This document shows, one piece after another, positions 23,102 through 64,000 of a DNA stretch of 64,000 nucleotides (position 1 is the first letter of the stretch; every line of letters begins with the position of its first letter). Location of the stretch: positions 248,001-312,000 of the forward strand of contig JNKJ01000003.1 in assembly GCA_000702025.1 (NCBI GenBank), read 5' to 3'. This DNA is from Blautia schinkii DSM 10518 (GTDB lineage: Bacteria > Bacillota > Clostridia > Lachnospirales > Lachnospiraceae). The translations under genes were made by a program, and so were the position numbers. Under the pieces are notes generated by a model, which was given only the letters and a program-made list of their open reading frames with translations, was not told the origin of the DNA and made no database searches.

Positions 23102-23282
23102 AGTAATACCTCCTCAAATTTATCTTTTGTATTGTGTGAATTTTCTTTTTGCTACCTTTTCCCCATTATTAAGTTTTGCTCTATTATATACCACTCTCTG
23201 TTTGCAGCACCTCCCGTTTAATCATCATATTGTCATCAATCACCTCCCTCCTAAAGCATTTCATCCTGTTACATTGTATTGT

Positions 23283-23300
23283 TTGATTAACGTTAATCAA
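23283..23300. promoter_or_regulatory. LacI-type operator upstream of the first esterase gene
   Basis: TTGATTAACGTTAATCAA is a perfect 18-bp palindrome sharing the TTAACGTTAA core with three other sites in the window. It lies 182 bases upstream of the esterase start at 23101, in the short gap after the second esterase gene. On the minus strand its first six bases (TTGATT) could act as a -35 box with TACAAT 16 bases on, so a bound repressor would block an internal promoter. Confidence 0.75.
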
Positions 23301-23307
23301 CTATTTA

Positions 23308-49170: not shown

Positions 49171-49821
49171 TCATATTTCAGGAATATTTCGAAATTTGCA
49201 ATGCACATTTGGACATTTTCTACAGTCATGCTGTGCTTGAAAGACCGTTTCATCCCCTGTCAGGACGAATACCTGACAGGAGGTTTTTACCGGGTCAAGC
49301 ATAAAACCACAGCTAATATCTATTCCAAATCTTTTTTTCAGTTCCAGTCGCTCCCACGCTTCACGCTGAGCTTCCATTGGAATATCATGAGGAGCTTCCA
49401 GGCGTTTTAAAATACCTTTTTTATGTTCTCTGCAGACCTCCCGCAGCTTTTCCAGCATCCTGTCTTCCAATGAAAAGAGAATACTGTCTGCGATTGCGTC
49501 ACAGAGCATGCCTTTTACATAATCGCCCTCCTGAAACGCTTTTGTACTGCATTGCATGATGCGGTCGCCAATACTAAGCACCGCATATATGACAGGAGTG
49601 CCTTCTTTATACTTCTCTGTTTCTATTACCATTGGCAATGTACCAAAACCCAGGATTCCTACGGGTTCTGCAAGCTTAAGAAGCTTGTCACAGATCTCAT
49701 GATACTCGTTTACGATTTCTCCATACGCGCAGCTTTTTTCATCGCAGTCCATTGCTTTTAATACTGCGGAAAGCTTCAGTTTAGGAACCAGATTATCAAT
49801 CTCATAAATTTCATCCATCAA
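49171..49821 (-). CDS. Methionine synthase activation domain-like protein with CxxCxxxxC cluster, possible corrinoid activator
   Basis: This 216-residue protein resembles the cobalamin-dependent methionine synthase activation domain (GDRIMQCSTKAFQEGDYVKGMLCDAIADSILFSLED, then the PMEAQREAWERLELKKRFGIDISCGFMLDPVKTSCQVF block). At its end it has C200-x2-C203-x4-C208 followed by KFR, a probable metal or Fe-S site. Proteins of this shape accompany corrinoid methyltransferase operons and may reduce or re-methylate inactive Co(II) corrinoid. Here it is the last gene of the UroD/corrinoid operon. Activity is inferred. The RamA-type ferredoxin domain is not present. Confidence 0.75.
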   Translation of the reverse strand: MMDEIYEIDNLVPKLKLSAVLKAMDCDEKSCAYGEIVNEYHEICDKLLKLAEPVGILGFGTLPMVIETEKYKEGTPVIYAVLSIGDRIMQCSTKAFQEGDYVKGMLCDAIADSILFSLEDRMLEKLREVCREHKKGILKRLEAPHDIPMEAQREAWERLELKKRFGIDISCGFMLDPVKTSCQVFVLTGDETVFQAQHDCRKCPNVHCKFRNIPEI

Positions 49822-49842
49822 TCAACCACGCTCCTAATAGCC

Positions 49843-50871
49843 TTACCTGTCCTCACTGTCCTCAGATTTCCTGTAAAACTGCTCTGCGGCGCAGAAAAAT
49901 GCTTCCAGATTTTCCATGGAGGTCTGGGGCGGTATATCGCAGCCGCTTGCCAGTACAAAATTTGGATATTTACTGCATTTCTCCAGCAGAGCTTTCGTCT
50001 CCTGCGCAATCACTTCAGGAGTTTCGCTTCGGAGGATGCCCGCCGGATCAATATTTCCAATCACCAGACGGTCAGAAGGAATCGCCTTTAATGCATTCTC
50101 CAGATCAATGGCGTTTCCAAAGCTATATGCTCGTACCTGCAACTCCGCAATTTCCTTCAAAAGGGGAGTTACCTTACCACAGTTATGATAGAGAAACAGG
50201 AAGTTTTCATCCTCCACCGCCTCCTGCACACGTTTCACGTACGGATTGGAAAATTCCCGAATCATAGGTGGTGACAGCAGGCCTGCCGCCGGTTCCGCCA
50301 TTGCGATTCCGTTTGCGCCTGCCTCCTTAAAAGCTTTCGCATACTCAATGAGAAACTGTGTTGATTTTTCCAGGATGGATTCCACCATTTCCGGTTCGTC
50401 ATAGCACAATAGCATGATTTCCGATATATCAAGAAGCCTTCCTGCCAGTGAAAATGGGCCGATAATCCCAGCAAATATGGGTCTGTCTGTGATTCTTTCA
50501 CAGGCCTCCCGAATCCCTTTTACACATTCCCCGGTACGTCCCGCGCCAACCTCCGGAATCTTCAGGGCCTCTGCCTCCTCCTCGTCATGGATCAGCATAT
50601 CGTGCAGTGTGGGAATATCATCCGCACTGTAAACCACCGGACTGCCGAAAGCCTCCGCCTCCACAGAAAGATCCATCAAACTAAACGCTGCCCCGGTGTC
50701 AAACCTTTTTGCGATTGCTTCCATGCAAAGAGCCTGATTATGTCCGCTCTTCACCAGCTCCTCCACATTTTTCCCAATCAACTGTGTGCCTGGGAAGGAT
50801 AAGATTGGCATGGGCTTTTTGTTTTTTCCCTGAAGATACGCATTGATCCACTCATTCATATTCCGTTTCAT
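49843..50871 (-). CDS. UroD/MtaA-superfamily methyltransferase with intact HxC...C zinc site
   Basis: This 342-residue TIM-barrel protein belongs to the uroporphyrinogen decarboxylase superfamily that includes corrinoid methyltransferases MtaA, MtbA and CmuA. It has the zinc ligands of that branch: H229 and C231 in LYHNCGK, and C311 in LASGCDIPPQTS. Of the UroD-type proteins in this operon it is the only one with all three, so it is the best candidate for moving the methyl group from the corrinoid protein to the final acceptor (such as a pterin or thiol) or the reverse. It lies 4 bases after the GH43 gene. Decarboxylation of uroporphyrinogen is unlikely for it. Confidence 0.85.
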   Translation of the reverse strand: MKRNMNEWINAYLQGKNKKPMPILSFPGTQLIGKNVEELVKSGHNQALCMEAIAKRFDTGAAFSLMDLSVEAEAFGSPVVYSADDIPTLHDMLIHDEEEAEALKIPEVGAGRTGECVKGIREACERITDRPIFAGIIGPFSLAGRLLDISEIMLLCYDEPEMVESILEKSTQFLIEYAKAFKEAGANGIAMAEPAAGLLSPPMIREFSNPYVKRVQEAVEDENFLFLYHNCGKVTPLLKEIAELQVRAYSFGNAIDLENALKAIPSDRLVIGNIDPAGILRSETPEVIAQETKALLEKCSKYPNFVLASGCDIPPQTSMENLEAFFCAAEQFYRKSEDSEDR

Positions 50872-50874
50872 GTT

Positions 50875-52998
50875 CTATTCCTCTCTTTCATTGTCATTTT
50901 CTCCAAAAGAAAATGTATTCGGATTAATTGCAAAAGAATCCACAAAAATCCCTTTATCCGCATTTCCACTCTTACGCAGACAGATATAATTCTCTGTACC
51001 GGCCGGAAGATTTACAGGCACCGCTATGGTGTGGGCATTTCTCATGGAAAAATCCCCTGTACTTTTGAACGGAAGCAAAGTCTGGATTTCTCCATTCACT
51101 TCCAGTTCATAAGCAGAACTTCCTGCCTCTCCCCTGCTGTACCGTACCTCCAGAACATACTGCCCCCCGGCTCCGCCGTTCACCTTTGCTATAGTCACTG
51201 CATCTCCGGGGTTTTCCAGATATTTCACAACTCTTCCGCTGAAAGCAAAGTAATCGCTTTCCCTCTGCGGAAGACCGTCCCAGCATCCGTTCCCCATTGG
51301 AGTAAGGGCTCCGTTTGCCGCAGAATAAACCTGACAGCAGCTTTTTTCCGTATATAAAGTCAGATGGTCAATGGCAAGCTTCCCGTATTGGTACCTGCCG
51401 GACTGCACACATATTTTATTTACCCCCGGCTTTACCTCCACCGGCACACGCAGCTCTGACGAAGCCCGTCCCAGAGAAGCTCTGCCATTCACAGGAAATA
51501 CAAGGGAACGTTGATACGTATCATTGACGTAAAGCTCCAGCTCTACCTCATCCTCACTGCAATAATACGGGATTACAAGCTCTCCGTGGCCGCCCGCACC
51601 TCCGTCCAGCAAACCATGAAAAGAGGCCCCTTTCAGTTCCATATTCCCAAGGACACGGTGACAGCTTGCATCCGGGTCAAATACCCTGGCCGCGCCGCGT
51701 CCCACAAAGGAATATACCGGCTCTGCCGTACTCTTTTTCTTTCCGTTATCAAAAGAAAACCAGTCTAACAATACCGGAGCTTTTGCGCAGAAGCACAGAT
51801 TCCTTGTCCCTTGCCCGCAGCAAAGTTCACAGCAGAAAATATCTGTTTTTTTATCTGTTTTTTTATCTGTTTTTTTGTCTGTTTTTTCAAAAGAATCCAC
51901 ACTTCCTACTTCGCAGGTGCCCAGAAGCTCTCCCTCTTCATTATCCTGTCTGATTTCAATCACGGCAGCCTTGCCTTGTATCAACGAGCTTCCGCAAAAC
52001 TGCATTTGGGTATGGTACTCTACATTTGCTATATTGGGGAAACACAGCATTTCCCCCTTTTTCAATTCCACTGCAAAGCCCCCGTCCGGCAGCTCTGTCT
52101 TGCATTCACGAGATGCAGAAAAATACCATTCTGCCTCAATCCTTTCCCATGCGGCATCATACTGTCCGCATCCATATTCCATGATTTTCTGATCAATCAC
52201 AATGCTTCCGTCAGCACGATAATGACATGGAGCCAGATAGGAGGCTCTTAAATATCGATTCGGATTGTCCATTCCTCCGGAAGCAAAATATGTCTGATTA
52301 TGATAGGTAAAATAACTTCCATGGTCAATGTTGCATCCCGTATTTCCCATATACTCATACGGACCGTAAACACAATCCGACATGGCATAATAGGAAGAAT
52401 GTGTCAGATAATACCTCTCTCCGTACTTATGAATCGAGGGCTTGTCCTCCTTGCACGGATTTCCTTTATATTCGATGCGTCTGAGCGGCTCTGCCAGACT
52501 TATCATATCTTCGTTCAGACGGGCAATGAAATAACAGTCACAGGGCGCAGGCACCCTGCATTCTCCCACGATCAGGTACGCACTGCCGTCGTCGTCCTGA
52601 AACACACAGGGGTCCCATTTCGGAAAATCCCTTGGCTCTGTCCGGTAATCCACAAGAGGGCCTCCAAGTGCATCCACAAAAGGGCCGGTCGGCGCATCTG
52701 CCGTTCCCACACCCACGCCCCAGTCTCCCGTAGAAAAATACCAGTAATACTTTCCGTTTTTGTACGCAGCGTCAACAGCCCAACACTGGTCCAGCGCACC
52801 GCAGTAAAAATCCCCGGGGCGAAGCACCGCCTCCTGTTTCCACTCAATCAGATCCTCCGAGGACCATATCTGCCAGTCCTCCATATGAAAGCCTTCCTCA
52901 TATCCCGGGGAATCATGAGTTGCGTATAAATAGACCCGGCCATCAAAAACATGTACATGCGGATCACAAATACCCTGCCTGAATATTATGGGGTTCAT
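50875..52998 (-). CDS. Glycoside hydrolase family 43 protein with CBM6-like modules
   Basis: This protein of about 707 residues starts with a five-bladed-propeller GH43 domain (about 1-290). The GH43 acids are D12 (ICDPHVHVFDG), D129 (FPKWDPCVFQDDDG) and E184 (CKEDKPSIHKYGERYYL). The rest is beta-sandwich, with two or three CBM6-like modules and a KKTD repeat linker (residues about 369-382) encoded by a short 12-base repeat. It lacks a signal peptide, so it is predicted cytoplasmic, which is unusual with CBMs. ATG 52998 is selected, with AAGGAAG upstream. It probably cleaves an arabinose- or xylose-type unit from the imported glycan. Confidence 0.82.
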   Translation of the reverse strand: MNPIIFRQGICDPHVHVFDGRVYLYATHDSPGYEEGFHMEDWQIWSSEDLIEWKQEAVLRPGDFYCGALDQCWAVDAAYKNGKYYWYFSTGDWGVGVGTADAPTGPFVDALGGPLVDYRTEPRDFPKWDPCVFQDDDGSAYLIVGECRVPAPCDCYFIARLNEDMISLAEPLRRIEYKGNPCKEDKPSIHKYGERYYLTHSSYYAMSDCVYGPYEYMGNTGCNIDHGSYFTYHNQTYFASGGMDNPNRYLRASYLAPCHYRADGSIVIDQKIMEYGCGQYDAAWERIEAEWYFSASRECKTELPDGGFAVELKKGEMLCFPNIANVEYHTQMQFCGSSLIQGKAAVIEIRQDNEEGELLGTCEVGSVDSFEKTDKKTDKKTDKKTDIFCCELCCGQGTRNLCFCAKAPVLLDWFSFDNGKKKSTAEPVYSFVGRGAARVFDPDASCHRVLGNMELKGASFHGLLDGGAGGHGELVIPYYCSEDEVELELYVNDTYQRSLVFPVNGRASLGRASSELRVPVEVKPGVNKICVQSGRYQYGKLAIDHLTLYTEKSCCQVYSAANGALTPMGNGCWDGLPQRESDYFAFSGRVVKYLENPGDAVTIAKVNGGAGGQYVLEVRYSRGEAGSSAYELEVNGEIQTLLPFKSTGDFSMRNAHTIAVPVNLPAGTENYICLRKSGNADKGIFVDSFAINPNTFSFGENDNEREE

Positions 52999-52999
52999 G

Positions 53000-54040
53000 T
53001 CAGTCTTCCTTTCCCGATTTCGCCAATCCGTATCGAATCGTCTCATCATACAAAGCCTCCAGATTCTCAAGCTTCCAATCAGGAGTGGAGTTATTTCCCA
53101 TTGTCATAATCAGTCTGCCGCTGTCCCGCCAATAGGTATCCAGCATAAAGCGGACCTCCGCCCGTACCTCCTCTTCTGTCCCAAAGGGAAGGGTATTCTG
53201 CACATCAAATCCGGCGAAAATACATATCTGATTTCCATACTTTTGTGCGATTTCCCGCTCATCCATAGTGTACTTCTGAATGGGGTGAATAACATCCAAC
53301 CCAATCTCAATAAAGTCCGGCAAAAATGATTGAATATTCCCGCAGGTATGAAGCCAGAAGTGAGTCCCCAGCTCATGCGCTTTATCAAAAAGCTTTTTAT
53401 AATACGGCTTGAAAAATTCCCGGAATATTTCCGGCGAAAAAAATGTGGATTTTTGTGTGCCCAGATCATCCGAAACAAAAAATCCGTCCACATGGGTTTC
53501 CTCGCAGGCACGCTCCATCATACGCAGATAGAAATCTGTCAGTCTTTGAAAGAGTCTGTGAACCTTTTCCGGATAAAGATAAAAATCGGTCAGTGCATTT
53601 TCCATTCCCCGCAGCATCCACAGCCGTTCGAAATAGCAGAACCAGAAACGCGCCAATACATATTTATCCGTACTCTCCCTTTGGGGAACCAGCCCCGGAT
53701 ACTCCGGACTTGGGAACGTTTCAAAAAATATCTCCGCCGCTTCTCCCTCCCAATCATCGATCAGAACCTGGCTGTCCAACCCGGCTGACGTATTTTCCTC
53801 CATATCCACTCCGGTCCAGCGGTAATTCGGCTCCTCCTCAGGTGCAGTGAAAAGATTTGGCATATTCAATTCGAAATATTCAATATCGGACGGATAGCCT
53901 GCCAGCCATTTCTTTTTCTGTTCTTCCTTTCCCTGAAACGCATTGCTGTGAATCCAATGGTCAAAGGCAATCGGAGGGCGGACAGCACACCCCCGTCCTT
54001 CAATTACCTGTTTCACCTCATCTCTGGTCAAACATCTCAT
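53000..54040 (-). CDS. UroD-superfamily methyltransferase-like protein, third zinc ligand absent
   Basis: This UroD-like barrel has about 346 residues. The HxC motif is present (H231, C233 in LHTCGNIQSF), but where MtaA-type proteins have a C-terminal Cys this one has IMTMGNNSTPDW. It is thus a divergent paralogue with an altered metal site or a different substrate. The start at 54040 is preferred (AGAGGG 8 bases upstream), because an earlier codon would overlap the mannosidase gene. It is placed between the GH38 and GH43 genes, directly abutting the latter. The function is unknown. Confidence 0.83.
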   Translation of the reverse strand: MRCLTRDEVKQVIEGRGCAVRPPIAFDHWIHSNAFQGKEEQKKKWLAGYPSDIEYFELNMPNLFTAPEEEPNYRWTGVDMEENTSAGLDSQVLIDDWEGEAAEIFFETFPSPEYPGLVPQRESTDKYVLARFWFCYFERLWMLRGMENALTDFYLYPEKVHRLFQRLTDFYLRMMERACEETHVDGFFVSDDLGTQKSTFFSPEIFREFFKPYYKKLFDKAHELGTHFWLHTCGNIQSFLPDFIEIGLDVIHPIQKYTMDEREIAQKYGNQICIFAGFDVQNTLPFGTEEEVRAEVRFMLDTYWRDSGRLIMTMGNNSTPDWKLENLEALYDETIRYGLAKSGKED

Positions 54041-54053
54041 AACTATGTCCCTC

Positions 54054-57000
54054 TTAATTGATTTCAAACATAAGTGTCTTTATTTCGTAGGGTGTCAGCT
54101 CTACCGTAACCTCTCCTTCGCACCAGCAGTCTCCCAATGGCTTTTCCATCAGATTACATTCACACCAGGAATTGTATCTGAATCCCGGAATGACCTTTAT
54201 TTTCTGTCTGCTGCCTGTGTATTCATGGAAACGGATGATAAGGCTTTTGCCATCCTCTGAACGTTTCACCGCATCCAGCTCTATACTGTCCTTATGGAAG
54301 GACACAAAACTTGTCCCGGCATTCCGGAGCATTCCCCTGCACACTTTGAGCGGCTGGTTTAAGGCGTAAGCCTCTTTCACAGTCTCCCCTTCCACGAAGT
54401 CTCCTTTATGAGGAAGAAGGGAATAGGTAAAGGTATGCTCTCCGATATCCTGTTTATAATCCGGATTTGTTGCACTCTTTAAAAGTGTGATCCGCATTCT
54501 GTTCTCTTTGGCATCATGTCCGTACTTACAGTCATTCAGAAGGCTCACTCCATAATCCCGCTCAGACATATCCACCCATCTGTGAGCAACTGTTTCAAAT
54601 TTTGCCATCTCCCAGCTTGTATTCCAGTTATTGGCACGCTTCACATTTCCGTACTGAATATCATAACGCGCCTCCGTCGCCCGGATATCCACTGTAAAGG
54701 ATGCTTTCAAAAGCTGGTGTACCTCCCTCCAGTCCACATAAGTGACAAAGTCAATCCGTCTGTCATCCGCATAAACGGTCAGATCCTGTACGATTGTGGA
54801 GTTCATGTATTTCCATTCCTGACGAAGAACCGCTCTCAGGCTTCCATTCTCCACGACCTCTGCGGAGACAAGCTCCGTAACCTCTTTCATTTTCTCCTCA
54901 TAAAAAATGTCAATATTCCATGCATCATAGTCCCGTGGCTTGTCCTCAAATATTTGAAGTACATTGGCACGCTGGCCCTCTGCGAGTACCTCCCGGTCAT
55001 TCTCCTTATCATAAAGTCTCGTAATCTGCCCCGCCTCATTAAGCTCCATTGTATAAAACGGCGTACAGATACGCTGCGGAGACACTTCAAATCGTTGTCT
55101 GTGTGCAAAAACCCCCTTGGATTCCCATGTATTCTCAGCAGATTCCCCTATAATCTCAGCGCCTTCTCTTACATTCCCAGCACCTTCTTCAAAACGGATT
55201 ACCGTACCTCCCATTGCAGGCACATGTTCCACCTTAACATAAGTGATACTGCCTTCCTTCTGTGTTTCCAGAATTTCTCCGTCACAGTTTCTGAACACCC
55301 CATCTCTTGGCTCTTCCACTGCTGCCACCTGCCCTGTTTCCCAGGCAGCGTTATTTAAGATTGTCCAGGTATCCTCAATCGGCTCTACAAGCACAGAAAA
55401 AGCTTCCTTTTCAACTCCTTCTGCAATCTCCTGTGCCAGTGCGTATTCCTTTTTGGAATCTTCATAAACAGGAAGAATGGAGGAACCCGGGATAATATCA
55501 TGGAACTGATGACGCAGTACAATTTTCCAGCCTTCTGTCAGCCTGTCCTGTGCCGCTTCTTTTATATCTCCCCTGGCTGCTGCCGCCATAGCGGTGAGCC
55601 ATTCTGCCTCCCGGTATAAAAACTCCATTTTCCGGTTCATTTTCTTATTATAGGCATGGCTCGTGTAGGTCCCGCGGTGAAACTCCAGATACAGCTCTCC
55701 ATCCCAGGTATGCAGATATTCCTCCGTATTTTTCACAGTCTCGTGAAGCTTGCGGAAATACTGTCCCGCAGTGCTGGTCTTTACATTTGGCAGACCCGGA
55801 AGCTTATCCAGCCTCCTTCTCTGCTCCAAAGCCTCACGGTTGACACCGCCTCCCCCATCTCCGTAGCCATAGGAAATCAACACTTCTTTATTTATATTCT
55901 TGTCATTATAGTTCTTCCAAACACCCTTTACCGTATAGGGGGTGAGCATACCGTTATAGGTATAGTACCAGGGACTTAAATGATAGTCGGCATCCGGTGT
56001 GGTGACAAAATGCGTAAGCACTTCGCTGCCGTCCATCCCTTTCCACAGAAAGGTATCATGAGGCATACGGTTATATTCATTCCAGCTTATTTTTGTAGTC
56101 ATGAAGGTATCAATGCCTGATTTTTTCAAAATCTGGGGAAGCGCCCAGGAATAGCCGAATACATCCGGCAGCCACAGAAATTCCATCTCTTTGCCGAACT
56201 CTTCCTTTACAAACTTACTTCCCAGTAATATCTGTCTGGTGAGGGATTCTCCGCTGATCAGATTGCAGTCAGCCTCCACCCACATGGCTCCATCCGCTTC
56301 CCATCTGCCATCCCGGACTCTCGCCTTAATCTCCTCGTAAATTTCCGGGAAGTCCTGTTTGATATATTCATATATCTGCGGCTGTGTCTGAAGGAAGATG
56401 TATTCATCAAACATTTCCATCAGACGCAGTACTGTGGAAAAAGAACGTGAGGCTTTCTCCCTTGTATGCTTCAGCCTCCACAGCCACGCCAAATCAATAT
56501 GGGTATGTCCCACACAATTTACCGTTACCATGGACTTCTTATCCATAGAATCCAGCGCCTCATTCAGAAGCTCGTCCGCAATCCCCACAGATACATAGAA
56601 TGCTTCGCTTCCCGGATACGACCAGTCTATCTGCAAGAAGGCATCGTTTAATGCTTTTAACAGCACATACTTATCCGGATCATCCTCTTCCAGCTGTGCA
56701 ACCGTCCCAAGAATGGTTTTCGAAAGATAGTACAGATCATCTGTTTTCTCATCCAGCCATGCCAATGCTGCTCCTTTTATCCTGTGCTCCTGAATGCGGG
56801 GAACACCTCCGCCCTCCATTCCGGACCACAGGCGGAACGTAAGCTCCAGGGTCTTTCCCGCCGCATTGTCATCAAAGAACACCTCCTGGTGGTTCGAATC
56901 CACACCCTGAAATGGTCTTCCATTCATATAAAGCAGAGCCTCAAACCCGGTGTTTCCGCCGCCTCCTGTCCTTCCGAAATCGAACAGCCCCAGCATTCTT

Positions 57001-57242
57001 TTTCCTTTCCATGCTTCCGGCAATTGCGCATCCAGATGCAGCCACAGATAGGTGTCCCAGCCCTCCCACAGCATCCCGATTTTTTCCTGCTTAAAATCAC
57101 TGAAATCAGACGGTACCTCCGGATTTGGGATTTCCCCTTCTGACTCCTTCACCAAAATATCTTCCAGCTCAATTACATCACGGTAGCGGTATGGTTCCAG
57201 CTCCTGGATTCTCTTTTCCAGCTTTTCAGCAATAAAGAACAT
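54054..57242 (-). CDS. Alpha-mannosidase, family GH38
   Basis: This 1062-residue GH38 enzyme has the catalytic domain with zinc-binding residues in VGHTHIDLAWLWR (H248 and D250) and nucleophile D325 in MWVEADCNLISGES. It is followed by the usual large C-terminal all-beta domain (about 700-1062) ending ETVKEAYALNQPL...PYEIKTLMFEIN. The length is normal for bacterial GH38. No signal peptide is visible, so it should act in the cytoplasm on imported mannosides. It is within an operon of UroD/corrinoid proteins, which suggests that the mannose units may be methylated. Confidence 0.92.
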   Translation of the reverse strand: MFFIAEKLEKRIQELEPYRYRDVIELEDILVKESEGEIPNPEVPSDFSDFKQEKIGMLWEGWDTYLWLHLDAQLPEAWKGKRMLGLFDFGRTGGGGNTGFEALLYMNGRPFQGVDSNHQEVFFDDNAAGKTLELTFRLWSGMEGGGVPRIQEHRIKGAALAWLDEKTDDLYYLSKTILGTVAQLEEDDPDKYVLLKALNDAFLQIDWSYPGSEAFYVSVGIADELLNEALDSMDKKSMVTVNCVGHTHIDLAWLWRLKHTREKASRSFSTVLRLMEMFDEYIFLQTQPQIYEYIKQDFPEIYEEIKARVRDGRWEADGAMWVEADCNLISGESLTRQILLGSKFVKEEFGKEMEFLWLPDVFGYSWALPQILKKSGIDTFMTTKISWNEYNRMPHDTFLWKGMDGSEVLTHFVTTPDADYHLSPWYYTYNGMLTPYTVKGVWKNYNDKNINKEVLISYGYGDGGGGVNREALEQRRRLDKLPGLPNVKTSTAGQYFRKLHETVKNTEEYLHTWDGELYLEFHRGTYTSHAYNKKMNRKMEFLYREAEWLTAMAAAARGDIKEAAQDRLTEGWKIVLRHQFHDIIPGSSILPVYEDSKKEYALAQEIAEGVEKEAFSVLVEPIEDTWTILNNAAWETGQVAAVEEPRDGVFRNCDGEILETQKEGSITYVKVEHVPAMGGTVIRFEEGAGNVREGAEIIGESAENTWESKGVFAHRQRFEVSPQRICTPFYTMELNEAGQITRLYDKENDREVLAEGQRANVLQIFEDKPRDYDAWNIDIFYEEKMKEVTELVSAEVVENGSLRAVLRQEWKYMNSTIVQDLTVYADDRRIDFVTYVDWREVHQLLKASFTVDIRATEARYDIQYGNVKRANNWNTSWEMAKFETVAHRWVDMSERDYGVSLLNDCKYGHDAKENRMRITLLKSATNPDYKQDIGEHTFTYSLLPHKGDFVEGETVKEAYALNQPLKVCRGMLRNAGTSFVSFHKDSIELDAVKRSEDGKSLIIRFHEYTGSRQKIKVIPGFRYNSWCECNLMEKPLGDCWCEGEVTVELTPYEIKTLMFEIN

Positions 57243-57295
57243 AGCATTCTCCCTCTCCCTTTCTTTTCCGTAACAATTCAGACAAGCCCGGACTG

Positions 57296-58276
57296 TTACT
57301 GTTTTCCTGCCTCTGGATAAATTCCTTCTTCTCTCCAGATCCGGTGCATCAGTTCATACCGTTCCAAAGACAATCCCGTATAAGCGCAATTCGAGGTACA
57401 GAAAATATATCCGTATCCAGGCATACCCTCTCGGAGCGATCTTCTGATATCTGCCACGCATTCCTCCTCTGTGCCGGTCTGAAGAAGCCCGCAGTTTACA
57501 TTTCCGCACAAAGCCACCTTATCTCCCACCAATTCCTTCACCTTTTTAAGACTCACCCCGCCCTGAGGATCAAGAGAATGCAGGGCGTCCGGACCGCATT
57601 CTACCATTTGGTCCAGGATTGGCATAATATTTCCATCTGTATGCTTGATGGTATAATATCCCATACTCCTGTATGCATCCAAAATATCCTTCAGATAAGG
57701 TGCAATAAATTCCCCGAACAAATCCGGGCTGAAAAACGGATTTGCATTAAAGCAATAGTCCGAGCACAGCGTAAAGCCATCCAGCAGCCCTTCATACCGG
57801 GTCATTTTCTCCGCAAAAGCCTTGAAATGGTCGACCTTTTTCTGGGCAAGTGCTTTCATTTTATCCTCTTCCTCATAGAGGAGAGCCGTAAATTCTATCA
57901 TGTCGTCTCCGGTAGGAATGGCAAAGGTGGGATCGCCGTGAACCATAGTATAATACTTGTCCCCGGTCTGATTACGGATTTCCTCCAGTATCCTCACGGT
58001 TCTGTCAAAGTATTTCATATTCCCGGTGTCCATCTGAACAAAAATAGCGCTGTGATTATACTTTTCCGCATATGCAATATAGGTTTCCGCTATGTCCTGA
58101 ATATGATAGTCCTGCTCTCTTTTGCTCATCTGGTCCCACTGATGGAAGACTCTGTGCTCCGGATGTACTCTCCGGAAGGCTTCCATAGTCAGATAAAATA
58201 CCAGCTCGAAATGAGGAACATGCCCGGTGATCGGTTCTCTTTTTAAGCATTTAATAAATTTTTCTCTTGGTGTCAT
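57296..58276 (-). CDS. UroD-superfamily protein with HxD motif
   Basis: This 326-residue UroD-like TIM barrel has HTDG (H212, D214 in IKHTDGNIMPIL) at the metal position in place of HxCG, and a C-terminal FCTSNCAYTG. The Cys-to-Asp change would make a harder metal site, less suited to thiolate activation. It may therefore bind a methylated substrate rather than a thiol acceptor. AAGGAG lies 7 bases upstream of its start. It follows another UroD-like gene (58300) after 24 bases and precedes the mannosidase. The function is unknown. Confidence 0.83.
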   Translation of the reverse strand: MTPREKFIKCLKREPITGHVPHFELVFYLTMEAFRRVHPEHRVFHQWDQMSKREQDYHIQDIAETYIAYAEKYNHSAIFVQMDTGNMKYFDRTVRILEEIRNQTGDKYYTMVHGDPTFAIPTGDDMIEFTALLYEEEDKMKALAQKKVDHFKAFAEKMTRYEGLLDGFTLCSDYCFNANPFFSPDLFGEFIAPYLKDILDAYRSMGYYTIKHTDGNIMPILDQMVECGPDALHSLDPQGGVSLKKVKELVGDKVALCGNVNCGLLQTGTEEECVADIRRSLREGMPGYGYIFCTSNCAYTGLSLERYELMHRIWREEGIYPEAGKQ

Positions 58277-58299
58277 AATAAACTCCTTTACATTCTTTT

Positions 58300-59352
58300 T
58301 TACTTGAAATCTCCTCTGTATTCACGGACGATTTCTATCATATTTAAGTAACCCTCTGTAGGTACATAAGCCGGTATAGAATTTCCGGTGCCGAAGGCAA
58401 ATCCGCCATGACCCTGGGACTTCGCAATGATATCCAAAATATATTCCTTTAACTCCTGTCTGGACGCATGGCACACCATATCCACATCAGCCCCGCCGAA
58501 ATTCCCAATCCTGTCGCCGTATTTTTCCACCCACACGGGAAATGGTGCGATTTGGTCCTCATTGGAATGCTTGGCGTCAATTCCCACTTCTTGGATCAAA
58601 TCCTCCATTACATCAAAAATCTTACCGCAGGAATGGAGAAGAAACGGCTTATGATAGCTATGTACCAGATCAACGATTGGTTTATAATGAGGCAGAACGA
58701 GCTGCTTCAAATCCTTTACGGAAAGCATGGTACTGGTCTTGTATCCCAGATCATCACCGAAGCGCAGCACACAATAAATGTCTCCGAATTCCCGCATAAA
58801 TCTCTGCCAGATTTTCAGGTTCGTCTCCCCAACCTTCCGGAACAGATTCCGGTACAATTCTTCGTCGTCCGCTGCAATATAGCATAGTCCCTGAAAGCTT
58901 GTCACATCCTGGACACACTCAAAAATCCCATTTCCCACACCGCCGATTGCTTTCATTCCCTCCGGCATTTCCTCACGAAGCGCCCGGAAATATTTTGCAT
59001 TTCTTTCAAAATAATAATCCGGTATCTCATCCCATGGATAGCGGTTAAAGTCATCCTCATCCTGGATAACAGGGGTCACACGGCAGTCACCCAGGGCTCC
59101 GCTTCCCGGCATAACACCCCCGATACACTCCTCAAAGGTCACAACATCATAACCATATTCCTTAAAAAAATCACAGTATACGCGAAAGAACTCCCGGATA
59201 TCCCGTTCATCTCCGTTATACAGTGCCATCATATCCACGCCCTTGATTTCCCCGATTTTCTCGTAAGAAACATTATGTTCATAGAGCGGCAGTCTTTCTG
59301 CTTCGATATTTCCTGCACAGTTTACGATATTTTTATAATTCGGCTCAAACAT
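58300..59352 (-). CDS. UroD-superfamily methyltransferase-like protein
   Basis: This 350-residue UroD-like protein has H240 and C242 in LLHSCGKIFDVM and a C-terminal FGTGNSIPAYVPTEGY motif with Asn where MtaA has Cys. The GNSIP ending is shared in spirit with the protein at 53000 (MGNNSTPD). This GxGNS form is common in carbohydrate-locus UroD proteins of unknown function. It follows the corrinoid protein gene after 97 bases and is a good candidate substrate:corrinoid methyltransferase. The substrate is unknown. Confidence 0.84.
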   Translation of the reverse strand: MFEPNYKNIVNCAGNIEAERLPLYEHNVSYEKIGEIKGVDMMALYNGDERDIREFFRVYCDFFKEYGYDVVTFEECIGGVMPGSGALGDCRVTPVIQDEDDFNRYPWDEIPDYYFERNAKYFRALREEMPEGMKAIGGVGNGIFECVQDVTSFQGLCYIAADDEELYRNLFRKVGETNLKIWQRFMREFGDIYCVLRFGDDLGYKTSTMLSVKDLKQLVLPHYKPIVDLVHSYHKPFLLHSCGKIFDVMEDLIQEVGIDAKHSNEDQIAPFPVWVEKYGDRIGNFGGADVDMVCHASRQELKEYILDIIAKSQGHGGFAFGTGNSIPAYVPTEGYLNMIEIVREYRGDFK

Positions 59353-59449
59353 AATCTGCCTCCTGTCTGTTCCATGCTTCTGTTGTTTACCGCCATTTGT
59401 TTATAAAAGGAGAATCCACGTCTCCGGGACTCTCCTTGAAGATCATTCC

Positions 59450-60091
59450 TTATTTTCTTTCTTCTACTGCCTTCTTTGCTATCTCTGCGCAGGTGGCAGC
59501 ATCCGGAGTATAGTAATCAACGCCGATTTCACGTGCGAATTTTTCTGTCACGGGAGCGCCGCCTATCATTACAATATACTTTTCACGAAGTCCGCGGTTT
59601 TTCAGTTCTTCCACAACCTCACCCATATTGGGCATGGTTGTCGAGAGAAGTGCGGACATCCCGATAATATCTGCTCCCACTTCCTCTGCCTTATCCACAA
59701 ATGTCTCAGGTTCTACGTCCACACCAAGGTCATGGATTTCAAATCCCACACCTTTGAGCATCATCATGACAAGATTTTTGCCGATATCGTGCAGATCGCC
59801 TTTTACCGTACCGATAACCGCTTTTCCCACAGGCTCGTTGCCAATCTCTACAAGCCTTGGTTCCAGAACTGCAAGACCTGTATTCATCGCTCTTGCCGCA
59901 ATCAGGACATCCGGGACAAAGACTTCATCTTTTTTAAATTTTTCGCCAATGATCATCATGCCGGACAGAAGACCCTCGTTGAGAATCGCTTTTGGATCCT
60001 CCCCCTCTTCCAGAGCCTGCGTTACCAGAGCCTTTACATTTTTTGCCCTGCCCTTTTGTAAAAATTCGCTGATTTCTTCAATAATTGCCAT
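59450..60091 (-). CDS. Corrinoid (cobalamin-binding) methyltransferase protein
   Basis: This 213-residue protein matches MtaC/MtbC-type corrinoid proteins. The N-terminal helical B12-binding cap has FKKDEVFVPDVLIAARAMNTGLAVLEP. The Rossmann-like domain has the lower-ligand motif DLHDIG (D99, H101, G104), with H101 expected to coordinate cobalt. Later parts show the typical SALLSTTMPNM and MIGGAPVT. It carries the methyl group between the UroD-type enzymes. ATG 60091 follows AGGAGG by 8 bases. It is the sole corrinoid protein in the window, shared by five UroD homologues, and lies just after the sugar-binding protein gene. Confidence 0.93.
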   Translation of the reverse strand: MAIIEEISEFLQKGRAKNVKALVTQALEEGEDPKAILNEGLLSGMMIIGEKFKKDEVFVPDVLIAARAMNTGLAVLEPRLVEIGNEPVGKAVIGTVKGDLHDIGKNLVMMMLKGVGFEIHDLGVDVEPETFVDKAEEVGADIIGMSALLSTTMPNMGEVVEELKNRGLREKYIVMIGGAPVTEKFAREIGVDYYTPDAATCAEIAKKAVEERK

Positions 60092-60137
60092 TACTAATTC
60101 CCTCCTGAGTAAGTTCAGCATAAAAACTTTTTATATT

Positions 60138-61586
60138 TTATTTTGAAGCAAGAAACGCATCAATCTGCGTCTGCATCTCTGCCAGAACAGCATCCACGCC
60201 TGCAACCTCAAGCTTCTCAAGGAATTCTGCATTTGTTTCCTCTACGGGAAGCTCGCCGCCTACAAGGCTCTCATACTCTTTTACCACCTTGGATACGTTC
60301 GTAATCTCCATTTTCACAGGTTCCGGGTCAAAGGAAAAACCAAGGATCGGAGATGTCTTTGCGCTGTCGTTCAATGCTTTTGTCTGCTCCCATACATCTT
60401 CCGGCTGTCCTTCCAGGGAATAGCTGTTAAATACGTTGCCCACTGCCCAGGACTGTCCATGGGAATAGCCGCTGTTTGGAATCAGTTCAATGGAGGTATC
60501 GCCGGTCTTATTGTAATGCTTGCCTTCGATGCCATAGGAAATAAGGTTCATTACATATGGGTCTGTGTTCACAAGTTCAAAATATTTCAGTGTTTCTAAC
60601 GGATGCTTTGAGGTCGCGGAAATACCATACATGGTTGCCACAACACTTCCTGTGGATATATATGGATCTGTGGCAGCGGTAGCCATTACACAGTCATAAC
60701 CTGCACGTGCAGATTCCTCTGCCTCAACTCCTGGTTTATAGGTTCCGGAATAAAATGCCGACGTCTTCTTTGCCACACGCTGACTTTCGCCGTACTCGTC
60801 CATGTATCCGCATTCCCCGTCAAGGAGACCTTTCTCATTTAAAGCTGCCAGCTCATTGAGCATTGCCTTCCACTCGTCAGTAGCATAGAAATTGACAACC
60901 TTCGCCTGGGCATCATCCATTTTGATGGCGCCTGCTGCCATATAATCACTGATATACTCATATCCGCAGTAATCAGCCGCCTGTGTACGATTCACACCGC
61001 CTACCTTTGCTCCATACTCATCAAAGACTTTCTGTGCATATTCGCCCATATCAGTGAGGGTTTTAATGGTGCTGATATCTGTTCCGGTTCCTTCTACAAA
61101 GTCTTTCGGCATCAGGGCACCAATCTGACGTGCCACGATCTGCTGGTTGGGAACCGCATAGATACCACCGTTGACGGTTGCAGCCTGCCATATGTAATCC
61201 GGAATCACTTCCTTAAGAGCCGGAACTTCGTCCAGCATCTCCGTAATGTCCAGGAACGCACCCTTCACAACATCTGTATTGTATGGATTGATCCAGTTGG
61301 AGGTGAAGCAGGCATCATATTCCTCCCCTGATGCAATGATCGTTTGGATCTTGTCGCCATAGGAACCGCCATGGAATACATATTCTACTTCTACACCTAT
61401 CTTTTCTCTTGTGTACTCATTCAGTGCTTCCATAACCGCAGCCCCGTCTGTCTGCTCCGGAATCAGCGTATGGATTCTAATCTTTACCACGTCATCTGCC
61501 CTTACCGGTTCTGCTCCCACCATCGTACAGGTTCCGGCTGCCATAAGAGCTGCCATTCCAAGTGCAAGTAATTTCTTTCCTTTCAT
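60138..61586 (-). CDS. Extracellular sugar-binding protein (LplA-like, DUF3502-type)
   Basis: This 482-residue binding protein pairs with the LplB/LplC-like permeases upstream. The signal peptide (KKLLALGMAALMAAGTCTMVGAEPVRADD) contains one Cys, in AAGTC, but the residue before it (Thr) and the spacing do not match a lipobox, so lipoprotein status is doubtful. The C-terminal segment (ESLVGGELPVEETNAEFLEKL...DAFLASK) resembles DUF3502. It lies directly before the corrinoid protein gene. By context it should bind the oligosaccharide that is cleaved by GH38 and GH43. The ligand is unknown. Confidence 0.88.
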   Translation of the reverse strand: MKGKKLLALGMAALMAAGTCTMVGAEPVRADDVVKIRIHTLIPEQTDGAAVMEALNEYTREKIGVEVEYVFHGGSYGDKIQTIIASGEEYDACFTSNWINPYNTDVVKGAFLDITEMLDEVPALKEVIPDYIWQAATVNGGIYAVPNQQIVARQIGALMPKDFVEGTGTDISTIKTLTDMGEYAQKVFDEYGAKVGGVNRTQAADYCGYEYISDYMAAGAIKMDDAQAKVVNFYATDEWKAMLNELAALNEKGLLDGECGYMDEYGESQRVAKKTSAFYSGTYKPGVEAEESARAGYDCVMATAATDPYISTGSVVATMYGISATSKHPLETLKYFELVNTDPYVMNLISYGIEGKHYNKTGDTSIELIPNSGYSHGQSWAVGNVFNSYSLEGQPEDVWEQTKALNDSAKTSPILGFSFDPEPVKMEITNVSKVVKEYESLVGGELPVEETNAEFLEKLEVAGVDAVLAEMQTQIDAFLASK

Positions 61587-61657
61587 GTTTGTTTCCTCCT
61601 TGATTATTTTTTATTTGTAATCGCTTCAGCAATTTACATTCCCTGTTTAAAGCCTGG

Positions 61658-62542
61658 TCAGCCTTTTACACCGCCTACGGTGAGGCCCTTCACAAAATAC
61701 TTCTGAAAAAAAGGGAAGATGACCAGCATGGGCCCCGCCGCGATGACACACATGGCCATTCGCATAGACTCTGTGGGCATGTCCGCAATACTCATTCCCA
61801 TACCTGAAATCGCTGAGTTTTTCAGCATCTCCTGTACATCTCTCATAAGAATGTATAGCCTGTACTGCAGGTTATATAAGCTTCTGTCATCGATATACAT
61901 GAGCGGCTGGAACCAGTCATTCCAGTAATTCAGAGTGATGAACATCCCAACTGTCGCCAGCGCAGGTTTTGCCAGCGGAAGTACAATCTTAAAGAAAATT
62001 GTAAGCTCACCCGCCCCGTCCACGGTCGCGGCTTCCATAAGTGAGGACGGTATCTCAGAAAAGAAGGTCCGCAGCAGAATGACAAACCACGGTACGATCA
62101 GAAGCGGCAGCAGCATTGCCCACATTGTATTTTTTAAATGCAGGTATTTTGTCATCCAGATGTAGGTAGGAACAAGTCCGCCGTTAAGTACCATAGGCAC
62201 GATCAGAAACACGGTAAGCTGCTTCCGGTAAGCATAATCTCTTCTGGAAAGTACATAGGCAATCATGGAATTCAGCAACAGACCAAAAATAAGTCCCATA
62301 ACCGTCACGATAATCGTCACACCATATGACCGGAAAATAGCTGCCGAGTCTTTAAATACATATTTATAGGCATCCAGTGTAAAGCCCTTGGGAAGAATCC
62401 CGTATCCTTCCTTAGCAATCTGCAGATCACTTGAAAATGATATGGAGATTACGGTTATGATCGGAACCACACATATCAGACAAATGCAGACCAGGAATAT
62501 GTAAAGCACCAGCTTTGGCCCAAATGACATCTCTTTCTTCAT
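61658..62542 (-). CDS. Carbohydrate ABC transporter permease (LplC-like)
   Basis: This 294-residue MalG-type permease of the LplC branch has the EAA loop SSLMEAATVDGAGELTIFFKIVLPLAKP and the C-terminal FVKGLTVGGVKG. It lies 11 bases after the LplB-like permease. No ATPase is encoded in the operon. Import is probably powered by a shared ATPase. Confidence 0.92.
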   Translation of the reverse strand: MKKEMSFGPKLVLYIFLVCICLICVVPIITVISISFSSDLQIAKEGYGILPKGFTLDAYKYVFKDSAAIFRSYGVTIIVTVMGLIFGLLLNSMIAYVLSRRDYAYRKQLTVFLIVPMVLNGGLVPTYIWMTKYLHLKNTMWAMLLPLLIVPWFVILLRTFFSEIPSSLMEAATVDGAGELTIFFKIVLPLAKPALATVGMFITLNYWNDWFQPLMYIDDRSLYNLQYRLYILMRDVQEMLKNSAISGMGMSIADMPTESMRMAMCVIAAGPMLVIFPFFQKYFVKGLTVGGVKG

Positions 62543-62553
62543 AGCTATCCCCC

Positions 62554-63474
62554 CTAAAATAATGCACTGTCTCTGTCAATTTTGCGCACAATGAGATTGG
62601 ACCCCATAATCAGGATGAATCCAACGACTGCCTGGAAGCATCCCACAGCAGAGCCAATCCCGATATCCCCGGTGACACGAAGCGCCCTGTAAATATAGGT
62701 ATCCAGAACGTCCGTGGTTGCATAAAGAGCGCCCTGATCCCTTGTCAGATTGTAGAACAGGCCGAAATCCGAATACATGATCCGTCCAATCTGAAGGATG
62801 GTCATTACAATAAGCAGGCTCTTGATCATCGGTAATGTGATTCTCCACACCATCTGCCAGCGGCTCGCACCGTCCAGCGCCGCTGCTTCATAATAGGTAT
62901 CGTCAATCCCTATGATTCCCGCATAATAAATGACACTGTAATACCCGGCATTCTTCCATACAAACATAAACGTCAGTATAAACGGCCAGTATTGCGAATT
63001 CGCATACCAGGAGACACTGTGCAGCCCGAAAAATGCAAGAATCTGATTCAGGATGCCATAATCATGATGAAGATACGCATACAGCAGATACCCGACTACG
63101 ACCCATGACATAAAGTAAGGAAAAAACATGATCGTCTGTACAATCTTGATCATATTCCGGCTGCGCACCTCATTCATGATCAGTGCAACCATTACCGATA
63201 CCAGCAGTGTCATGGCAATAAACAGGAAATTTAATCCAATCGTATTACGCAATACCACCCAGGCATCATTAGATTTAAAGAAGAATTCAAAATTTTTAAA
63301 TCCGATCCAATCACTTCCAAGAAACCCTTTATCATAACGAAAATCCTTAAACGCAATAACAAGTCCGACAATGGGCACATAAGAAAATAGAAAAAGAAGT
63401 AATGCTGCCGGAAATGCCATTGCTGTCAGAGTTCTGTTTTTCTTTCTTCCGGTCCTGCTTATCCGTTTGTTCAT
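62554..63474 (-). CDS. Carbohydrate ABC transporter permease (LplB-like)
   Basis: This 306-residue MalF-type permease of the LplB branch has the EAA loop YYEAAALDGASRWQMVWRITLPMIKS. It has six helices after a charged N-terminus (KRISRTGRKKNRTLTAM). It precedes the LplC-like permease by 11 bases and may be the first gene after the promoter candidate at 63532. The importer operon continues through binding protein, corrinoid protein, UroD proteins and glycosidases. Confidence 0.92.
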   Translation of the reverse strand: MNKRISRTGRKKNRTLTAMAFPAALLLFLFSYVPIVGLVIAFKDFRYDKGFLGSDWIGFKNFEFFFKSNDAWVVLRNTIGLNFLFIAMTLLVSVMVALIMNEVRSRNMIKIVQTIMFFPYFMSWVVVGYLLYAYLHHDYGILNQILAFFGLHSVSWYANSQYWPFILTFMFVWKNAGYYSVIYYAGIIGIDDTYYEAAALDGASRWQMVWRITLPMIKSLLIVMTILQIGRIMYSDFGLFYNLTRDQGALYATTDVLDTYIYRALRVTGDIGIGSAVGCFQAVVGFILIMGSNLIVRKIDRDSALF

Positions 63475-63531
63475 TGTGGCGTCCCTCCTCCTTTTTTGCA
63501 GAATCTTTTTTGTCCTCTGTATTTGACTCTA

Positions 63532-63559
63532 TTTTTAGCACACATATCCGTTTTTTCAA
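63532..63559 (-). promoter_or_regulatory. Weak promoter candidate upstream of the LplB-like permease
   Basis: On the minus strand TTGAAA (63559-63554), a 16-base spacer and TAAAAA (63537-63532) lie 58 bases before the permease start. The -10 match is poor. The gap between this gene and the UroD gene upstream (63475-63620) has no terminator hairpin I can see, so the operon may be continuous with upstream genes. Confidence 0.35.
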
Positions 63560-63620
63560 CTTCAAAATCTAATGATTTCTATGTTTTCTAACAAAAGAGG
63601 ACTCTGAATTCTGCCTGACA

Positions 63621-64000
63621 CTACCATTCGGCCCAGTTTTTAAATACTTCATACACATTTTGGGGTGCTGCACCGGGGCCGAACTCACATTGGGCAATAC
63701 AGCCGCCTTGTTTCCACAGAGTTTCCCGGACCTTAGAAACCGCAGCCTGGATGTCCCCGGCCGTTCCCTCCACAAGGAGGTGCTGCCGGTCCATCTCGCC
63801 CCAGAAGGTAATTTTCCCTGCCAGAGGCGCCAGCTTATCAATCCCTATACAAAATATCTGGGAGTTCACAGCATCCACTCCTATCTCAGCGAAATCAGGA
63901 AGAATATCCAGAATATAGCCGTCGGAGTGCATGAATACCTTCTTATTATATTTTTTCCCTATTTCCGCATAATCCTTATACATAGGCTTGAAAATCTGAC
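63621..64000 (-). CDS. UroD-superfamily protein with HxD motif, C-terminal part (partial)
   Basis: The reading frame is open to the window edge, so this is the 3' end of a longer gene. It contains FMHSDGYILDILPDF, with HxDG in place of HxCG as in the protein at 57296, and the C-terminal AQCEFGPGAAPQNVYEVFKNW. It is the fifth UroD-superfamily protein of the cluster and the first in the direction of transcription among those visible. The N-terminal half lies outside the window. Confidence 0.8.
   Translation of the reverse strand, partial: QIFKPMYKDYAEIGKKYNKKVFMHSDGYILDILPDFAEIGVDAVNSQIFCIGIDKLAPLAGKITFWGEMDRQHLLVEGTAGDIQAAVSKVRETLWKQGGCIAQCEFGPGAAPQNVYEVFKNWAEW

Follow-up and report, generated by a model that had tools for sequence, protein, structure and literature searches.

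A glycan-utilisation operon with a proposed corrinoid-dependent demethylation step in Blautia schinkii

Many glycans bear O-methyl ethers, and these block glycosidases. How might an anaerobic bacterium remove them? This question is raised by a run of genes in Blautia schinkii DSM 10518, found in a window of 64,000 nucleotides (the whole stretch of DNA analysed here, bases 248001-312000 of the 416-kb contig C2 in a genome of 6.68 Mb). The run encodes proteins of the uroporphyrinogen decarboxylase (UroD) superfamily and a corrinoid protein together with sugar importers and glycosidases. Judged from gene content, corrinoid-dependent demethylation of O-methyl sugars is its best reading, and the run would be a glycan-utilisation operon with a built-in demethylation step; we give this reading a probability of roughly 0.55. 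If it is true, an anaerobic corrinoid route explains the use of methylated sugars by gut anaerobes, large uncharacterised UroD clades acquire functions, and glycan breakdown is linked to acetogenesis.

Inspection of open reading frames gave a minus-strand run of 11 genes (49171-63474) followed by a fifth UroD gene from 63621. A preliminary description of this DNA had claimed at least eleven consecutive minus-strand genes with gaps under about 100 bases, and this agrees with what was found. All named genes lie where it had placed them, on the minus strand and free of internal stops, and the intergenic gaps inside 49171-63474 are 1-97 bases when likely starts are used (from translation, 60091 for the corrinoid protein, 54040 for U4 and 52998 for the GH43 gene). 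The upstream UroD gene that it had noted is present, but the run does not end there; it crosses the window edge and comprises 17 genes up to a divergent AraC-type gene, with gaps of 1-99 bases except the largest, which is 146 bases from LplB to U10. The order of transcription is a Gfo/Idh/MocA oxidoreductase, LplB2, LplC2, SBP2, GHx, U10, LplB, LplC and SBP, followed by COR, U7, U6, GH38, U4, GH43, U2 and ACT (Table 1; U denotes a UroD protein, COR the corrinoid protein, SBP a binding protein, ACT an activation-like protein and GH a glycoside hydrolase). Pfam matches were obtained for the UroDs, corrinoid protein, binding protein, permeases, GH38 and GH43 that had been named; the permease names LplB and LplC are those of the preliminary description, and Pfam shows BPD_transp_1. 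Also as described there, Pfam scans of the 17 run proteins found no methanol- or amine-specific partner of the MtaB (PF12176) or MttB type, and the run lacks the MtaB of an MtaABC methanol system. It holds an oligosaccharide-type importer, glycosidases and a GH38 enzyme together, as a glycan-utilisation operon does, and gene content lends indirect support to the proposal that a corrinoid methyl-transfer set is joined to glycan import and cleavage. The word operon refers to spacing and strand, because promoter-like sites (26 vs 25.2 in shuffles) and terminator-like sites (14 vs 12.7) showed no excess. Rfam gave zero matches at gathering thresholds, and a tRNA search found none.

Table 1. Positions and family matches of the genes discussed, in window coordinates unless a locus (L016) is given
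Feature	Position	Strand	Description	Matches
ACT	49171..49821	-	216-aa activation-like protein, C-terminal CxxCxxxxC	Relatives are RACo-type activases, N-terminal part
U2	49843..50871	-	MtaA-like UroD-fold protein	URO-D 1.4e-59; MtaA 4ay7 E 2.9e-22
GH43	50875..52998	-	Glycosidase	PF04616 1.3e-24; CBM6 weak, below cut-off
U4	53000..54040	-	UroD-fold, candidate O-demethylase	URO-D 8.5e-25; CdmB 9rui 4.1e-5
GH38	54054..57242	-	Alpha-mannosidase, Ams1-like, 1062 aa	PF01074 9.1e-89 and three more GH38 domains
U6	57296..58276	-	UroD-fold, candidate O-demethylase	URO-D 6.7e-19
U7	58300..59352	-	UroD-fold, candidate O-demethylase	URO-D 9.3e-15
COR	59450..60091	-	Corrinoid protein	B12-binding 1.4e-27; B12-binding_2 5.9e-21
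SBP	60138..61586	-	Sugar-type ABC importer binding protein	PF12010 (DUF3502) 1.6e-21; PF01547 (SBP_bac_1) 6.1e-7
LplC	61658..62542	-	LplC-like permease	BPD_transp_1 2.6e-10; 83% relative in L237
LplB	62554..63474	-	LplB-like permease	BPD_transp_1 6e-15; 83% relative in L237
U10	63621..64000, past window edge; L016:3621-4628	-	UroD-fold, 335 aa, candidate O-demethylase	
GHx	L016:4644-6899		751 aa; upstream of U10 in transcription	

The five UroD proteins fall into two site classes. In a common alignment they are 14-25% identical pairwise, and U4, U6, U7 and U10 share 14-18% identity with U2. At the His-Cys-Cys positions of 4ay7 (M. mazei MtaA), which we take to be the zinc ligands, U2 reads His-Cys-Cys, U4 and U7 read His-Cys-Asn, and U6 reads His-Asp-Asn; U10 has His-Asp, a gap in the third column and a Cys two columns away. 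His-Cys-Cys is kept in 15/15 U2 relatives (>45% identical) from COR loci in one alignment, and 0/10 other UroDs of the same genome align as His-Cys-Cys, the third column being gapped in three of the ten. According to the available text of Kountz and Balskus (PMC10418091), thiol and selenol enzymes of the superfamily have His-Cys-Cys, and O-enzymes carry other residues in place of one Cys or both. Under this rule U4, U6 and U7 would be O-type, U10 probably too, and U2 S-type, an assignment that fits the published rule. A uniform MtaA/CmuA-type assignment of the UroDs is rejected for U4, U6, U7 and U10, whose site residues are altered and do not align as His-Cys-Cys, and U2 is left as the thiol-type member. 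The run contains the kind of UroD methyltransferase I (MT-I) candidate expected of an O-demethylase, with a metal site other than His-Cys-Cys, in U4, U6 and U7, and in U10 with its gapped third position. U2 likely moves methyl groups between the corrinoid protein and an acceptor, which may be a thiol or another compound.

The whole U10 gene scores 50.7 bits against URO-D, above the cut-off of 23.9, and its in-window piece 23.8 bits; a search of U10 against PDB sequences gave no match. U4 and U6 both match CdmB 9rui, weakly. AlphaFold models of U6 (predicted local distance difference test, pLDDT, 88.8) and U7 (pLDDT 87.1) have the UroD fold, which leaves the chemistry undecided because the nearest folds to the U6 model by E-value are MtaA (4ay8/4ay7) and those nearest to the U7 model are uroporphyrinogen decarboxylases, MtaA ranking shortly after them. 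Blautia sp. is the source of a U6 relative with 90% identity, and a plasmid search with U6 returned three weak partial matches.

Candidates for the remaining parts of a methyl-transfer system lie in the run or elsewhere in the genome. COR has the cobalamin motif DxHxxG expected of an O-demethylase corrinoid protein (DLHDIG, residue 109 of the longer reading), and its best relative is 83% identical, from Candidatus Blautia faecavium. ACT had been labelled methionine-synthase-activation-like. It has CxxCxxxxC at residue 200, and no Pfam or NCBIfam model matched it. Three proteins of 730-761 aa share 41-61% identity with ACT over their first ~215 residues; two of the three were domain-scanned, and both have RACo activase domains at the C-terminal end. 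The likeness of ACT is confined to the N-terminal part of such activases, and a complete RACo activase of 610 aa is encoded on contig C4. A methyltransferase II (MT-II) to tetrahydrofolate was found in none of the 17 run genes; a Pterin_bind gene lies beside a COR-type gene on contig C5, and putative similar frames are on C30 and C44. Among the glycosidases, GH38 has Ams1 7vqo as its best structural-database relative (E 1.8e-134), and GH43 has xylosidase/arabinofuranosidase relatives, with 3qed and 8hcj as best PDB matches. At 1e-3, GHx matched nothing in Pfam or NCBIfam; it has at least 756 relatives, some with weak GH127-type marks. The earlier naming of a mannose- and arabinose/xylose-containing oligosaccharide as the glycan was not upheld, as the GH families are the sole pointer to it.

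What was observed here is which genes are present and in what order, their families, the residues at aligned sites and the recurrence, along with acetyl-CoA synthase and a RACo activase in the genome; we infer the substrate class, the direction of methyl flow, the order of demethylation and cleavage, and the acceptor. In the scheme that we propose, SBP, LplB and LplC would import an O-methylated oligosaccharide. U4, U6, U7 and U10 would each methylate Co(I)-COR, with its own O-methyl position or sugar as donor, and U2 (MtaA-type), or a pterin-type methyltransferase encoded elsewhere, would pass the methyl group from COR to an acceptor. ACT and a RACo-type activase acting in trans, such as the one on C4, may keep the cobalt reduced. 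GH38, GH43 and GHx would cut the glycan once it is unblocked, and the methyl group could end in acetyl-CoA in this acetogen. GH38 enzymes bind mannose O-2 and O-3 through a metal. In planarian N-glycans the methylated forms resist alpha-mannosidase and unmethylated forms are cut (PMC5936828, available text); because a methyl group on terminal mannose blocks alpha-mannosidase in this way, demethylation would precede cleavage. Chlorella N-glycans commonly have 3-O-methyl and 3,6-di-O-methyl mannose caps (PMC6344472, available text). We tentatively suggest, as a narrower and doubtful extension, an O2-independent route in which position-specific corrinoid O-demethylases uncap methyl-mannosides for GH38 and the acetogen uses both sugar and methyl group. 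Candidate sources would be such as algal N-glycans with 3-O-methyl and 3,6-di-O-methyl mannose ends, snails and flatworms. UroDs encoded with a rhamnose mutarotase would likewise demethylate free O-methyl deoxysugars.

Recurrence of the neighbourhood was examined by searching U7, U10 and the further UroD US98 (described below) in 299 genomes of the family and U6 in 392 genomes of the order. Gene lists are incomplete, as the composition-scored caller used misses some genes, for example the first UroD of locus L103 and several genes in L060. Locus labels come from the top BLAST hit against a small reference set (E 1e-4), and a label may reflect a shared domain only; for GH38, GHx-type, RACo, RhaM and importer genes, the labels were Pfam-checked on single examples. 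U7 was found in 10/299 genomes at E 1e-20, and in 8/299 at 64% identity or more, counting its own genome and one stop-containing fragment. U10 was found in 9/299 at E 1e-60. All eight U7 genomes are among the nine with U10 (hypergeometric 6e-15, uncorrected for kinship). General UroD richness is an unlikely cause of this co-occurrence, since genome G013 gave 26 + 25 first-look candidates (7 scored each) and no match. Outside the B. schinkii genome, U7 and U10 are on different contigs in six genomes, which are draft assemblies, and ~100 kb apart in G179. U6 occurs in 11/392 genomes at E 1e-40, with orthologues of 57-63% identity in three genomes and of 57% in L060, and it is adjacent to U7 in G447.

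Ten of the 11 U10 places outside the own genome were fetched, in nine regions. Six of these have an importer gene or glycosidase close by (L237, L238, L240, L243, L244, L246) and three do not (L239, L241, L242), L241 having a sulfatase and a second UroD. L237 in G179 holds together U4, U6, an importer 83% identical to SBP/LplC/LplB, U10, GHx and GH38, and L243 and L244 (G253 and G214) hold U10, further UroDs, GH38 and permeases. Clusters of UroD, importer and GH38 recur in these three other genomes, as the preliminary description would lead one to look for, but in most relatives the corrinoid protein is apart from these sugar genes, with GH38, GH43 or GHx near 0/33 close COR relatives. In G003, a COR group comprises an oxidoreductase (72%), a permease, SBP, COR (61%), DUF2284, a RACo activase, U6 (58%), a sugar kinase and GH3. 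On the same contig, 14-34 kb from COR, are GH95, GH10, GH2, GHx, two U4 relatives (59-60%), U7 (64%), GH31, GH43 and L-fucose isomerase. A second run in the own genome (contig C17, L103:1024-10104) has an importer, a UroD, a GH78-like gene and GH38; its UroD has D-D-H as its three site residues. Partial recurrence of the set in G003, G179, G253 and G214 makes a chance neighbourhood of unrelated genes unlikely.

A second, smaller run points to the nature of the methyl donor. On contig C5 (L098:4045-10749), a CUT2-type importer, the UroD US98, RhaM (PF05336), a pterin-binding methyltransferase and a corrinoid protein form one run, a compact candidate for the demethylation of O-methyl deoxysugars. 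US98 has matches in 19/299 genomes at 25 places, own included. Among 20 regions fetched of the 24 outside places, RhaM is present in 9, a CUT2-type importer in 7, and a corrinoid protein and/or activase in 4, with 1-5 called genes between; several of the 20 show neither sugar nor corrinoid partners. That members of this family lie near the corrinoid core in some genomes and near monosaccharide genes in others is the best indication of a sugar or sugar-like methyl donor.

COR itself has wider associations. The 33 closest COR loci (L017-L049; six of the stretches under 12 kb) and 17 further ones (L050-L066) were taken from the GTDB collection. Near the 33 are U2 relatives of at least 45% identity in 15, RACo domains in 24 and PocR-type regulators in 22. 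With such company COR is a general hub that is rarely inside a glycan run. A COR match at E 1e-10 was present in 11/11 genomes searched (10 from the U7 search and one congener), with best identities of 61-81% in the seven other U7 genomes and 48% in the congener G263. It is not confined to U7 genomes, because G253 (78%) and G291 (74%) hold only distant U7 relatives. The own genome encodes an acetyl-CoA synthase, by match, so that methyl groups could enter the Wood-Ljungdahl pathway, whose genes the preliminary description had proposed to look for; matches were also found in 5/9 other genomes searched.

Several observations weigh against sugar demethylation by this run. Cleavage is more difficult for alkyl than for aryl ethers. 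GH38, GH43 and GHx, the glycosidases sought, were near COR relatives in 0/33 close and 0/17 further loci. Predicted folds place the UroDs in the superfamily and not specifically among methyltransferases, with decarboxylases as best matches of the U7 model, and a search of U7 against PDB sequences gave no credible relative, only low-scoring caspase matches taken as chance. The sugar locus L237 of G179 has no corrinoid protein in its stretch, COR being on contig C18, and in G003 the COR and GH groups are not one run because genes lie between them, including a divergent AraC-type gene. Four of seven U7 orthologues outside the own genome (L088-L091) lack the run's GH or UroD relatives in the fetched stretch (two of them have permease relatives 4-6 kb away), another locus (L087) starts at a contig edge, and the U7 of G214 is fragmentary and contains a stop. 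In G036 the oxidoreductase, importer, GHx, phosphomannose isomerase, GH38 and GH2 occur with no UroD. UroD loci of the own genome are near sugar importers only slightly more often than by chance, in 9/11 cases within 10 kb vs 5.4 expected (P 0.013) and in 5/11 within 3 kb (P 0.06), in a test that used PF01547, PF02653 and PF13347 only and counted the five run UroDs as one locus. Acetyl-CoA synthase was without a match in G003, G051, G253 and G214, and the fate of the methyl group may differ in these relatives.

These points bear on three other explanations. The UroDs of sugar loci might do other chemistry on sugars or sugar acids, such as decarboxylation, COR, U2 and ACT having arrived by rearrangement. 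Many sugar-linked UroDs without COR in the same stretch speak for this, as do the decarboxylases nearest to the predicted U7 fold; we nevertheless hold it to be quite unlikely, given that COR, an activase and U6 in G003 stand beside a related oxidoreductase and importer, that the corrinoid or activase genes near US98 relatives (4/20) are so few called genes away, that a 57% U6 relative sits inside a COR-MtaB-UroD array (L060), and that all U7 genomes hold COR. A substrate of another kind is envisaged if sugar-methoxyphenol conjugates, that is methoxylated aromatic glycosides, are imported, relieved of their sugar, and the aglycone is demethylated by the UroDs, in the manner of known O-demethylases of acetogens. 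No aromatic-metabolism family was found among the run proteins in Pfam scans, GH38 and two oligosaccharide-type importers were judged unusual for phenolic glycosides, and RhaM and CUT2-type importers near a related UroD point to sugars. The weak CdmB 9rui matches of U4 and U6 are in its favour, and so is the literature: aryl methyl ether MT-Is of the UroD superfamily include MtvB, OdmB, VdmB and MtoB (PMC13222342, available text), and Blautia producta carries out O-demethylation via a corrinoid system (PMC12915777, available text). We regard aromatic glycosides as an improbable substrate.

A third possibility is that U2, COR and the activase shuttle methyl groups among thiols or selenols, in a methyl-sulfur or methyl-selenium salvage of the type 1 mlp kind, and that the sugar genes are mere neighbours. 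U2 is an MtaA-like His-Cys-Cys protein, COR with U2 relatives, RACo and PocR-type genes is recurrent away from the run's sugar genes, and sulfur and selenium chemistry has been argued for type 1 mlp clusters (PMC10418091, available text). Set against these, only U2 of the five UroDs aligns as His-Cys-Cys, Pfam scans of the run proteins turned up no family linked to sulfur, selenium or methionine, and a type 1 cluster requires at least two Mlps, of which only U2 resembles one. Salvage of this kind seems very unlikely to us.

Some further observations were made along the way. Distant U7 relatives (31-35%) occur with MttB-family genes at L094:5722-12074 and L097:9229-14244, L094 also having a GH4 gene. 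In a Verrucomicrobiia metagenome-assembled genome, L060:10001-18128 holds a corrinoid protein, MtaB and a row of UroDs that includes the 57% U6 relative; calls there are incomplete. Homocysteine S-methyltransferase genes (PF02574) are near UroDs at L165:6521-7690 and L047:7868-8725 and are a possible methyl acceptor route. Elsewhere in the window, a 122-aa frame at 44356-44724 matches ADH_zinc_N, a model of 129 positions, solely over 47-123 and is possibly a remnant of a dehydrogenase gene, and two similar tandem secreted-type genes with an Esterase domain (PF00756) lie at 21755-24645 near importer-type genes.

How does the run compare with known systems? Its parts are known; their combination and the proposed substrate class are without a description among the open-literature matches listed, judged by title and start of abstract. 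Corrinoid-dependent sugar demethylation was found in none of these matches, a coverage in which subscription journals are mostly outside. Paenibacillus LplA/LplB/YtcP aldouronate clusters have the same importer type and GH43, and to our knowledge neither UroD nor corrinoid genes. Among the matches listed, sugar demethylation is represented solely by the P450 route for 6-O-methyl-galactose in porphyran degradation (PMC10033563, available text). It likewise removes an O-methyl group from a sugar during glycan breakdown; unlike the route proposed here it requires oxygen, is found in marine bacteria and involves no corrinoid. The CdmBCA chloromethane system (PMC13222342, available text) also pairs a UroD-superfamily MT-I with a corrinoid protein in an acetogen, but the run UroDs are remote from it (E 4.1e-5 at best) and no haloalkane-related context was seen. 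Type 1 mlp clusters (PMC10418091, available text) share with the run an MtaA-like protein, a corrinoid protein, an activase-like part and the absence of a tetrahydrofolate methyltransferase from the cluster. They are defined by at least two Mlps (>25% identical to coenzyme M methyltransferase), a corrinoid protein and a Ram/RACE activase, in the same direction and within 2 kb. The run instead has one His-Cys-Cys MtaA-like protein and four altered-site UroDs (14-18% identical to U2), no full activase, and sugar genes in place of sulfur or selenium genes. Acetogen three-component O-demethylases (MtvB/OdmB/VdmB) consist of a UroD MT-I, a corrinoid protein, an MT-II and an activase. The run differs from them in having several MT-I candidates, an MtaA-like protein and no pterin-type MT-II, and in carrying oligosaccharide-type importers with GH38 and GH43; it resembles them in its UroD-fold candidate MT-Is, its small corrinoid protein, its activase-like part and a host with acetyl-CoA synthase.

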